A DNA stretch of 64,000 nucleotides from positions 62,001 through 126,000 of the forward strand of contig CAJBEZ010000095.1 in the NCBI GenBank assembly GCA_903952205.1. The letters run 5' to 3'. The notes under the pieces are model-generated. The model searched no databases. It was not told the origin of the DNA and saw only the letters and a list, made by a program, of their open reading frames with translations. Numbering within the stretch: the first letter of the stretch is position 1; every line of letters begins with the position of its first letter. This stretch comes from an uncultured Desulfomonile sp. (GTDB taxonomy: Bacteria > Desulfobacterota > Desulfomonilia > Desulfomonilales > Desulfomonilaceae). Positions 31,776-37,117 of this stretch are shown here, in pieces. Made by a program: the position numbers and the translations under genes.

Positions 31776-33446
31776 ATGGAAAAAATATGGCTCAAATCTT
31801 ATACGCCTGGAGTTCCTGCGACTATAGATTTCGCGGACATTCCCTTACACTTGGCCCTTACTCAAACAGCCGCCAGGATTCCTAAAAATCCTGCCCTCGT
31901 TTTTCAGGGGAAAACCATTAGTTATCAAGAACTGGACGTAATGGTTTCGAAATTCGCGTCAGGGCTTAAAAGCCTTGGAGTCGGACCTGGAGACAGGGTT
32001 GCCCTACTTTTACCAAATCTCGTCCAGACGGTGGTCGGTATGTACGGCGCTTTCCGGCTCGGCGCCATCGCTGTGCCGAATAATCCTCTCTACACGGACC
32101 GGGAGCTGGAGTACCAGTTGCGAGATTCTGGATGCGGATGGATCATTTGTCTGGACACCCTAGTGCCCCGGATGATGAAATTGCGGCCAAAAACTGAAAT
32201 TAAAAGTATCATCTCATGCCATATTCGTGATTATCTCCCGTTTCCACTGAAACAGCTCTTCCCGCTCTTGAAAAGGAAGCTCCACTTAGATACTCCAAGA
32301 CAGGAAGATATTTACGAATTCACGACACTTATTAACAGCCAACAGGCGGTAAAGGCTAATTATCCGTCCAGTATGGAAGAAACGGCCGTACTAATTTATA
32401 CGGGTGGTACAACCGGAGTCTCGAAAGGGGTGGAACTAACCCACAGAAACCTGTCATCAAACTGCCAACAGGCGCGGGCATGGTGTATGGATTTCGCTGA
32501 CGACAAAGAAATTGCTCTCGGATGCCTCCCGTTCTTTCACTCTTACGGCCTCACAGCGGCCATGAACATGTCTATTTTTTACGGATGGCTCAATGTTCTT
32601 ATTCCCAAGCCTGAAGCTCTTGCCATTCTCAAGGCCGTACAGAAATATAAGGTGACCTTCATTCCTGGAGTTCCGACTCTATTCAATGCGATGATCAACC
32701 ATCCTGCAATCAAGAAGTATAGTTTAAATTCGGTGAAGGCATGCCTGTCCGCAGCGGCCCCATTGCCACTGGAGACGATCAGGGGGTTTGAGGCGGTGAC
32801 CGGAATCCTTATTTCTGAAGCCTACGGCCTTACTGAGACCGCTCCATGCACGCACGCCATTCCATTAGGGGGAAAGGTAAAACCCGGATGCATAGGGCTG
32901 CCAATCCCCAGCACCGACGCAAAACTGGTCGACATAGATAATCCCGACCGAGAAATTTTCACATTTGGCGAACCCGGTGAGCTTTGTGTCAAAGGTCCTC
33001 AAGTTATGAAAGGATACCACAACCGGCCGGAGGAAACCGCTGCGGCGTTCAAAGATGGATGGTTTCTTACCGGCGACATCGCCACGGTAGACGAGGAAGG
33101 GTATTTCACAATTGTGGATCGCAAAAAAGACATGATCATATCCGGTGGTTTTAACATTTACCCTCGGGATGTAGACGAAGTTCTCTTCGCTCACCCAAAA
33201 ATCCTCGAAGCATGCGTAATAGGTGTCCCTGACCGCCACTTCGGAGAGAGTGTCAAAGCTTATGTTGTTCTTAAACCAGACCAATCTGTTACAGAGCAAG
33301 AGATCATCGACTACTGCAGAGAGCGGATGGCAAATTACAAAGCGCCCAAGAGCGTCGAGTTCATTGACAGCCTCCCCAAGAGCGCAATCGGAAAAATCCT
33401 CCGCAAAGGTTTAGTAGAAATGGACAGAAAAAAGGCTCATTTATAG
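31776..33446 (+). CDS. Long/medium-chain acyl-CoA synthetase (AMP-forming)
   Basis: A 556-residue FadD-like ligase that activates a carboxylic acid with ATP and CoA. Motifs in order are YTGGTTGVSKGVELTHRN near residue 210, AYGLTETAPCTHA near 350, GWFLTGDIATVDEEGYF near 428, DRKKDMIISGGFNIYP, and the C-terminal catalytic Lys in AIGKILRKG near 540. The length is typical. There is no operon partner; a TATAAT at 31690-31695 could be its -10 element. Whether it prefers fatty or aromatic acids is not decided by these motifs. Confidence 0.88.
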   Translation: MEKIWLKSYTPGVPATIDFADIPLHLALTQTAARIPKNPALVFQGKTISYQELDVMVSKFASGLKSLGVGPGDRVALLLPNLVQTVVGMYGAFRLGAIAVPNNPLYTDRELEYQLRDSGCGWIICLDTLVPRMMKLRPKTEIKSIISCHIRDYLPFPLKQLFPLLKRKLHLDTPRQEDIYEFTTLINSQQAVKANYPSSMEETAVLIYTGGTTGVSKGVELTHRNLSSNCQQARAWCMDFADDKEIALGCLPFFHSYGLTAAMNMSIFYGWLNVLIPKPEALAILKAVQKYKVTFIPGVPTLFNAMINHPAIKKYSLNSVKACLSAAAPLPLETIRGFEAVTGILISEAYGLTETAPCTHAIPLGGKVKPGCIGLPIPSTDAKLVDIDNPDREIFTFGEPGELCVKGPQVMKGYHNRPEETAAAFKDGWFLTGDIATVDEEGYFTIVDRKKDMIISGGFNIYPRDVDEVLFAHPKILEACVIGVPDRHFGESVKAYVVLKPDQSVTEQEIIDYCRERMANYKAPKSVEFIDSLPKSAIGKILRKGLVEMDRKKAHL

Positions 33447-33805
33447 TATTCACGCCTAGTTTTAGAAATATTAGAGTCATTTAACCTTTTATTCATTGTG
33501 TCTTTTCTGTCCTCTTTAGCACTTCCGTTTTCAATAAAATTGTTAATTTGTTCAGTAATATTGATAATTGATGGTCTGCTTAATCCGTTATCAGTAGCTT
33601 GTTTTTTAATAAAATTGTTTTGTTGGTACACCTTCTGCTTTAAAGCCAGTTCAACGTAATTAAGTTCACTGAGGTCCTTAACGTTCAATGGCTTAACCTT
33701 GGATTTAGGTTTATTCCCTTTAGAACTGGGAGGTGTTGGTTGACTAGATTGTGTAGGAGGTGTTCCAGGCACAAATTCAGTGTCGTCGTCATTAATTTTT
33801 TTCAT
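33437..33805 (-). CDS. Hydrophilic hypothetical protein
   Basis: A 122-residue protein. The first 45 residues are rich in Pro, Ser, Thr and Lys; the rest is charged and helical with many Asn. No domain is recognised. TTAGGAG precedes the ATG at a good distance, which favours a real gene. Its 3' end overlaps the convergent acyl-CoA synthetase by about 10 bp. The coding DNA is notably A+T-rich compared with neighbours, suggesting foreign origin. Confidence 0.5.
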   Translation of the reverse strand: MKKINDDDTEFVPGTPPTQSSQPTPPSSKGNKPKSKVKPLNVKDLSELNYVELALKQKVYQQNNFIKKQATDNGLSRPSIINITEQINNFIENGSAKEDRKDTMNKRLNDSNISKTRREYYK

Positions 33806-35835: not shown

Positions 35836-36337
35836 AATCCAATAACTACGACTTTCAGGTTGATTTTGGTTATATTGATCCAATTAGGCATTACTGATTT
35901 CCTCCCCTAAATTGGTGTTAGCCGCCAACGTTCTGGAATGTTTTCATATAATATGCCCAACGTCAATTACATTTGCTCATCTTTGCGCATCTCAGTCTGA
36001 TCTGTGAATCCTAAGGTAAAATTATGCGTTGAATTAATCACTGTCCTTTTTAAAAGGCCATTAGAACTAATTGTGCGCCTACAGATTTGGCTCAATACTT
36101 AAAAGATGCGTAAAAATTATCCGAGTGTTCAAATTTTCGGCACAAGCCGCCCGTTTTTAATACATAGCAAAGCATAGCAATTGCAGCATGTTGTAAAATA
36201 GTAGCATTTTATGTCCAAATTTTTGTACAACGACCTTGATTTAGACCCACTCATCAGACATAACATCTATGGAGAAAGGTTTTATAACCATTTAATATGA
36301 ATGATGATATGTAATATGTTTATTTTAAACTAAACTT
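35836..36337. other. A+T-rich intergenic region
   Basis: About 500 bp with no gene. A short direct repeat (CATAGCAA/CATAGCAA) lies near 36165-36180, and a 4-bp stem hairpin near 36138. Otherwise it leads into a candidate sigma-54 promoter. Confidence 0.4.
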
Positions 36338-36353
36338 TGGCCCAGCAGTTGCA
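36338..36353 (+). promoter_or_regulatory. Sigma-54 (-24/-12) promoter
   Basis: TGGCCCAGCAGTTGCA matches the consensus TGGCACG-N4-TTGCA at nearly all key positions, with GG (36339-36340) and GC (36351-36352) at the correct 10-bp separation. The predicted transcript start is near 36364. Confidence 0.6.
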
Positions 36354-36363
36354 ATACAATATT

Positions 36364-36420
36364 GGTAAGAAAATAATCTTCCCATCCTACGCCAACTGCA
36401 GTTTCAGTTGGTTTTTTTTT
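36364..36420 (+). ncRNA. Candidate sigma-54-dependent small RNA, about 57 nt
   Basis: Between the sigma-54 promoter at 36338 and the terminator at 36392 lies an approximately 28-nt unpaired leader containing the pyrimidine-rich TCTTCCCATCCT, complementary to ribosome-binding-type sequences. There is no open frame. It could be a small regulatory RNA, or a leader with a terminator ahead of the nitronate monooxygenase gene before that gene decayed. Both readings are inference from signals. Confidence 0.45.
36392..36420 (+). terminator. Strong rho-independent terminator
   Basis: CCAACTG (36392-36398) and CAGTTGG (36405-36411) form a perfect 7-bp stem with a 6-base loop, immediately followed by nine T residues. 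No plus-strand gene lies upstream within 2.9 kb. Confidence 0.85.
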
Positions 36421-36489
36421 GGTCAATAACAGAACCAGGGAGTAGAGCCACAGGCCACAGCCCCATGCTCTCTTTTCTTCGCCTAACTT

Positions 36490-37117
36490 GCTTCTTCATT
36501 CTCCTCAAAGTGTGTGGGAGTGCGATACGCCTTGAAGGTTCAAGACATGGGCGCAGACATCATAACGGTTGTTGGATATGAGAATGGGGGCGCTACAGGA
36601 AAGCTGGATATAGGATCATTGGTGCTGGTTCCCAAGGTCGTTGAAAGCGTCAACGCGCCTGTTATCGGAGGCGGTGGCGTATGTGAGGGGAAGAGCTTTT
36701 TGGCAATGCTCGCTTTAGGCGCCGAAGGAGTCATCATGGGTACTCGTCATTCTTACTACCAAAGAGGCGCCGATTCATGAAAAACTCAAACAGGCCCTTC
36801 TTGAGGCCAAGGAGTTGGATACCATTCTGGTGATGAGGTCTGTGGGATCGACTCACCGTGTCTGGAAAAATGGCGCTGCAAGAAAATGCTGTGAGATGGA
36901 AGAGCAAAATTCTACATTGCAGGAACTCATGAAAATCGTCGGAGGGGAAAAGGCCAGAAAAATGTACACAGATGGGAATGTGGACAGTGGAGTCATTTCA
37001 TGTGGCCAATGCGTGGGACGTTGCAATGACATACTTACAATGAAGGAATTATTCGACCAAATCATGCTGGAGGCCCAGACTGTGACACGAAATCTTGTTC
37101 GTCTGAATTTGCAATAA
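36490..37117 (+). pseudogene. Nitronate monooxygenase remnant (5' deleted, frameshifted)
   Basis: Homology begins abruptly at KCVGVRYALKVQDMGADII, in the middle of the flavin TIM barrel, and runs through PVIGGGGVCEG and AEGVIMGTR to a +1/-1 shift near 36750. It continues in another frame as ILTTKEAPIHEKLKQALLEAK, then MRSVGSTHRVWKN, to the C-terminus (DSGVISCGQCVG, then IMLEA) at 37117. About the first half of the protein, with the N-terminal flavin site, is missing. It is clearly a dead copy of a 2-nitropropane dioxygenase/enoyl reductase-like gene. Confidence 0.82.

Follow-up and report, generated by a model that had tools for sequence, protein, structure and literature searches.

A putative sigma-54-controlled small RNA kept throughout the Desulfomonilaceae, with 2 diverged orphan duplicates in 1 genome

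The Qrr small RNAs (sRNAs) of Vibrio, controlled by LuxO/VanO and sigma-54, occur as 1 copy in some species and as several copies in others (PMC3352281, PMC10162802). In the sulfate reducer Desulfovibrio vulgaris, Dv_sRNA2 is a target of the response regulator DVU0679, with a mapped binding site (PMC3333781), and NfeR1 targets the ribosome-binding site of ntrB to silence it (PMC10746234). We analyzed a 64-kb window (the whole stretch of DNA under study, 64,000 nucleotides from an uncultured Desulfomonile sp., genome G000) in which an earlier note had proposed a sigma-54 promoter followed by a terminator. Members of Desulfomonile are anaerobes noted for reducing sulfate and for dehalogenation. 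We consider it likely that the element is a sigma-54-activated sRNA gene whose product acts in trans with Hfq, that its ancestral copy heads an FG-GAP gene, and that its orphan copies have been retargeted.

The features of the locus are collected in Table 1. The GG (36339-36340) and GC (36351-36352) of the promoter are 10 bp apart, and a perfect 7-bp stem begins 39 bp beyond the GC, followed by 9 T residues. The near-consensus promoter and the terminator are therefore as the earlier note had described them, and the open reading frames of the window confirm the absence of a plus-strand gene just upstream. With a G-U pair, the stem reaches 8 bp (36391-36398/36405-36412), and the terminator reads GCCAACTG-CAGTTT-CAGTTGGT, then T at 36412-36420. 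The RNA start at 36364 was placed 12 nt past the -12 C (36352), and the length of 57 nt was counted to the end of the T-run; the predicted fold of this 57-mer is -14.5 kcal/mol (z = -3.5 against shuffles).

Table 1. Features of the sRNA locus and its downstream neighbor (positions in the window)
Feature	Position	Strand	Basis or remark
Orphan duplicate of 341 bp, from the upstream sites through promoter and RNA to the terminator	36089..36429	+	
Distal conserved upstream site TGTTCAAATTTTCGGCAC	36126..36143	+	About 212 bp before TGG of -24; conservation, genome scans
Proximal palindrome TGTCCAAATTTTTGTACA	36212..36229	+	About 126-127 bp before TGG			
Sigma-54 -24/-12 promoter TGGCCCAGCAGTTGC	36338..36352	+	Alignment of copies, conserved blocks, motif scan
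Predicted 57-nt small RNA	36364..36420	+	Fold, covariance model; same sequence in C28 paralogue
Conserved seed TTCCCATCCTACGCC	36379..36393	+	Aligned copies
Rho-independent terminator, GCCAACTG/CAGTTGGT stem, 6-nt loop, 9 T	36391..36420	+	
Nitronate monooxygenase remnant, neighbor outside the unit	36505..37117	+	N-terminal part missing, frameshift near 36748

Across the 64-kb window, an exact match to TGGCMCRNNNNTTGCA was found only at the promoter (36338-36352). Sigma-54 matches with up to 2 mismatches numbered 15 against 16.5 expected and were thus uninformative, and relaxed promoter and terminator motifs matched approximately as often in the window as in shuffled sequence, so that motif scoring alone was indecisive. 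Such frequent loose matches would favor a chance coincidence of promoter-like and terminator-like sequences, but 18 of 18 genomes keep the element with its parts ordered and spaced alike, which already refutes this reading and leaves it virtually no probability. It is the comparison across copies, not the motif scores, that shows the predicted element to lie beyond chance.

With a 201-bp query, 2 further copies were identified in the window's genome, G000:C28 (93%, E = 4.9e-48) and G000:C29 (83%, E = 2.7e-19), making 3 copies of the sRNA gene in G000. A 101-bp query matched all 17 other Desulfomonilaceae genomes and none of 23 sister-family genomes. The covariance model R1, built from 20 copies, matched 18 of 18 Desulfomonilaceae genomes, with the best E per genome ranging from 2.8e-11 to 8.4e-17; among 395 genomes sampled evenly across the phylum, 5 of them Desulfomonilaceae, strong R1 matches were confined to these 5 family members. 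Weak R1 matches in G024, G073, G388, and G391 (E 0.001-0.009) had no sigma-54 box with seed in the sequences shown and were set aside as chance. Judged by these sequence searches, there is no convincing element in the phylum beyond the Desulfomonilaceae. An exact 18-base core was also matched once in viral contigs, within a phage structural-type gene, and in Planctomycetota and Niallia contigs, where the promoter and hairpin are absent; all of these were rejected as chance. Rfam returned nothing at gathering score, with other families at chance level only, and a search of open-paper text returned none containing both "Desulfomonile" and "small RNA." This putative family-wide regulatory RNA of the Desulfomonilaceae appears undescribed so far.

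A footprint alignment of approximately 440 bp, made from 18 non-orphan copies (1 of the 2 G008 copies was left out), resolved into 4 conserved blocks split by diverged DNA: a distal site, a proximal palindrome, the promoter, and the RNA. The mean top-base frequency was 0.91 in the distal site, 0.88 in the palindrome, and 0.84 in the -24/-12 promoter, and within the RNA it was 0.86 in the 5' part, 0.92 in the hairpin, and 0.94 in the U-run; the DNA between blocks and downstream had values of 0.50-0.58, including 0.54-0.58 in the flanks of the distal site. The extent given in the earlier note took in the promoter and terminator correctly, but the unit continues approximately 210 bp further upstream. 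The family consensus of the promoter is TGGCACGGcaaTTGC, in agreement with the sigma-54 pattern YTGGCACG-N4-TTGCW with GG and GC 10 bp apart. Loss of the GG/GC pair in relatives had been named as a refuting observation; across the 21 aligned copies, neither GG nor GC ever varies, and the whole TTGC and the UCCUACGCCAACUG ... CAGUUGG segments are likewise invariant.

The distal site (consensus TGTTCAAAAATTCGGCAG) lies at -201 to -214 in most copies, approximately 86 bp above the palindrome. For the majority of copies, the palindrome itself (consensus TGTTCAAAWWTTTGAACA) lies 126-129 bp before the TGG; in 2 the distance is 115 bp, about 1 helical turn less, and the proximal site is degenerate in G007, G008, G009, and G015. 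This palindrome is probably an enhancer-binding-protein site, and we treat it as a candidate. The arrangement of these putative sites is that of an enhancer-dependent sigma-54 promoter, with the spacing expected for a phased enhancer (approximately 80-200 bp upstream, in constant helical phase). In 12 relatives, the sole genomic site within 1 mismatch of the palindrome is the sRNA gene's own, and in G000 the palindrome and a sigma-54 promoter occur together only at the 3 sRNA copies. Presence in 18 of 18 family genomes, enhancer-like sites at a fixed distance, and paralogues all lend support to the reading of the locus as a predicted sigma-54-driven small RNA, which the earlier note had put forward.

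Other palindromes in G000 (GGTTCAAAATTTTGAACC) were considered as further sRNA sites and rejected because they belong to a longer unrelated repeat. The palindrome GGGGTTCAAAATTTTGAACCCC is repeated at G000:C36:60843 and at G000:C38:48207, 57354, and 58261, and is unrelated to the sRNA promoter. Further, TGTTCAAATTTTCGGCGC, which is near the distal-site sequence, was observed beside a malate-dehydrogenase-like gene (mdh) in 2 family members (L171 1587, L172 2300); these mdh-side matches had no visible sigma-54 promoter nearby and were not retained.

The most conserved part of the RNA is a near-invariant, largely unpaired stretch, UUCCUCCUACGCC, which runs into the stem and contains CCUCC, the anti-Shine-Dalgarno core. 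Consistent with a single-stranded seed, TTCCTCCTACGCC is invariant in the non-orphan copies and lies mostly upstream of the stem. The seed of the window copy departs from the ancestral TTTTCCTCCTACGCC at 36381, 36382, and 36384, and part of it is weakly paired with the RNA 5' end in the predicted fold. The suggestion that the unpaired part can pair with ribosome-site-like sequences holds for the family, but the window carries a derived variant, UUCCCAUCC, of the ancestral UUUUCCUCC, and the pairing of this variant with a consensus Shine-Dalgarno sequence is weaker (-7.4 kcal/mol, against -10.3 kcal/mol for the canonical seed). The predicted RNA has its own promoter, a Rho-independent terminator with a long U-run, and no ORF, as is typical of an sRNA. 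No start codon precedes the terminator in the aligned copies, and the loop varies from 5 to 9 nt, so the RNA is not coding; since the stem sequence is invariant, covariation cannot be used in support of the RNA. RpoN (rpoN) was identified in 17 of 18 family genomes and Hfq in 15 of 18, and both in 8 of 8 high-quality ones.

Complements of the seed (GGCGTAGGAGGAAAAG) with up to 2 mismatches were no commoner in the 18 genomes than reversed controls and were not shared by orthologous start sites, a search that does not resolve short anti-Shine-Dalgarno pairings. The sole complement common to several genomes lies within a coding region and was discarded. Complements of the orphan seed in G000 were at or near control level, the sRNA genes themselves aside. 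The RNA probably silences other genes by pairing with their ribosome-binding sites, and we infer translational repression in trans with Hfq, the orphans having shifted to other targets. A CrcZ-like role, in which the A-rich 5' part and the U-tail would titrate Hfq or another RNA-binding protein, strikes us as quite improbable: the A-rich segment (CAAGAAAAUAAUC; AAG-AAA-AAG-AAU in some relatives) and the long U-run are conserved and Hfq is encoded, but conservation is strongest in UCCUCCUACGCCAACUG, not in the A-rich part, and there is a single short A-rich stretch, whereas titrating RNAs usually have many sites.

The ancestral-type locus is represented by G000:C29 and a counterpart in each relative. 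Here, all on the same strand, a metallo-beta-lactamase-fold gene precedes the element, and the gene of an exported protein of approximately 520-540 aa with FG-GAP repeats directly follows it. Upstream of the metallo-beta-lactamase-fold gene there are often FmdE and NUDIX genes and, in the window's genus, an RNase II-type gene. In several genomes, an opposite-strand gene resembling a membrane pyrophosphatase (named by inspection only) follows. The FG-GAP gene was present after the T-run in all genomes with enough sequence and starts approximately 30-100 nt from it in most, a constant position that fits a cis role of the ancestral copy.

Similarity among the 3 copies in G000 ends at about the limits of the 341-bp unit, over which the window copy is 89% identical to G000:C28 and 65% to G000:C29. 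No insertion-element ends or target duplications were seen by eye flanking this unit, and no FG-GAP gene was found near the window or C28 copy. Both copies share the 3 seed changes relative to the family consensus, which give the common seed UUCCCAUCCUACGCC. Between them, there are 0 differences in the 57 nt of the RNA and 24 in the 134 bp that extend from immediately downstream of the palindrome to position -1 (Fisher P = 1.7e-4). The simplest reading of this comparison, in which the sample is small and gene conversion would look similar, is that the RNA itself has been under selection after duplication. The promoters of the orphans are slightly off consensus (TGGCCC, TGGTCC) and their palindromes have 2 mismatches each, and both elements may be weakened.

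These copies bear on whether the ancestral element is a 5' leader attenuator controlling the FG-GAP gene in cis, with the orphans, including the window copy, as non-functional duplication relics. In keeping with such a leader, the gene is retained on the same strand past the terminator at the ancestral loci, with little space for a separate promoter of its own. It is not retained at the window and C28 copies, yet their RNAs are unchanged while the adjacent DNA has diverged; further, neither an antiterminator as alternative fold nor a leader ORF could be seen, and a conserved single-stranded pyrimidine stretch is unnecessary for termination. An FG-GAP attenuator at the ancestral locus is possible and leaves the orphan copies unexplained, and we hold the leader-and-relics reading as a whole to be unlikely. 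That orphans without the FG-GAP gene keep identical RNAs favors an independent sRNA acting in trans over an attenuator, and it also speaks against a link with the nitronate monooxygenase remnant downstream.

The earlier note had also offered attenuation of the nitronate monooxygenase gene, found about 85 bp downstream of the window copy and in the same orientation. This gene is a 5'-truncated, frameshifted remnant, its intact homologues in relatives (G001, 86%, and G012, 83% identical over the matched part) lie elsewhere, and none was found beside any other copy examined; the comparison already refutes this proposal, to which we assign hardly any probability.

Phage terminase-type genes (GpA ATPase) at a contig end are approximately 0.6 kb away from the C28 copy (G000:C28:92272-92397; L037 around 12304), whose other side is occupied by HNH and pRiA4b ORF-3-like genes; this copy may have been moved together with a prophage or beside one. 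A 61-bp stretch is 82% identical between window 33444-33504 and L037 11941-12001, 2.6 kb from the window sRNA; in C28 it follows the other orphan sRNA at a distance of approximately 0.3 kb.

From the copies, their conservation pattern, synteny, and the presence of rpoN and hfq, we infer the following course for the trans-acting sRNA. A sigma-54 activator (enhancer-binding protein) would probably bind the conserved upstream sites and turn on RNA polymerase-sigma-54 at 36338-36352, and transcription would yield an RNA of approximately 57 nt ending at the hairpin plus U9. Most likely, this RNA would act in trans with Hfq: a pyrimidine stretch in it that is unpaired and near-invariant (ancestrally UUUUCCUCCUACGCC) would pair with the Shine-Dalgarno regions of target mRNAs and so block translation. 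At the ancestral copy, the FG-GAP gene would presumably be transcribed by read-through, and the window and C28 duplicates, having left that gene behind, probably have a different or narrower target set through their changed seed. More tentatively, the locus could be a sigma-54 unit with 2 outputs, termination giving the trans anti-Shine-Dalgarno RNA and read-through the FG-GAP protein; its RNA part would have been duplicated twice with a rewritten seed, so that 1 activator drives 2 RNA classes with different targets, a possibility that we regard as doubtful. The orphan pair offers a natural case of seed change following sRNA duplication, and as the on-switch, the RNA, and the diverged duplicates are defined to the base, the activator, conditions, and targets are directly testable.

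Among the described systems, Qrr likewise combines a small RNA gene with a consensus sigma-54 promoter, an upstream enhancer box, and a terminator (PMC3352281, PMC10162802). Its enhancer site is TTGCA-N3-TGCAA, unlike TGTTCAAAWWTTTGAACA here, and the present RNA is approximately 57 nt with a single conserved hairpin and no Rfam match, so that it has neither the Rfam family nor the LuxO box of Qrr. Pxr of the myxobacteria also has a sigma-54 promoter, is kept across related genera, and in some lineages has undergone duplication, the paralogues having diverged (PMC5568312), but it has 2 to 3 stem-loops and a sigma-54 regulator gene upstream of it, whereas we found 1 conserved hairpin and different neighbors. 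Dv_sRNA2, likened here by its description, is an sRNA of a sulfate-reducing bacterium under a two-component regulator (PMC3333781); unlike the Desulfomonilaceae sRNA, it adjoins its regulator gene. The alpha-r14/CuckOO sRNAs of Alphaproteobacteria (NfeR1 and kin) share an ultraconserved unpaired anti-Shine-Dalgarno motif (PMC10746234). Their motif, CCUCCUCCC, stands in the unpaired parts of 3 hairpins, whereas the Desulfomonilaceae RNA has 1 UUCCUCCUACGCC between the 5' end and the terminator, plus a sigma-54 promoter, and its 1 motif, CCUCCUACG, falls outside the only conserved hairpin. Because the defining features of Qrr, Pxr, Dv_sRNA2, and NfeR1 are each shared only in part, this apparently undescribed family-wide regulatory RNA of anaerobic Desulfomonile-type bacteria is best called a new family, a Qrr/Pxr-like sigma-54-controlled sRNA in kind.
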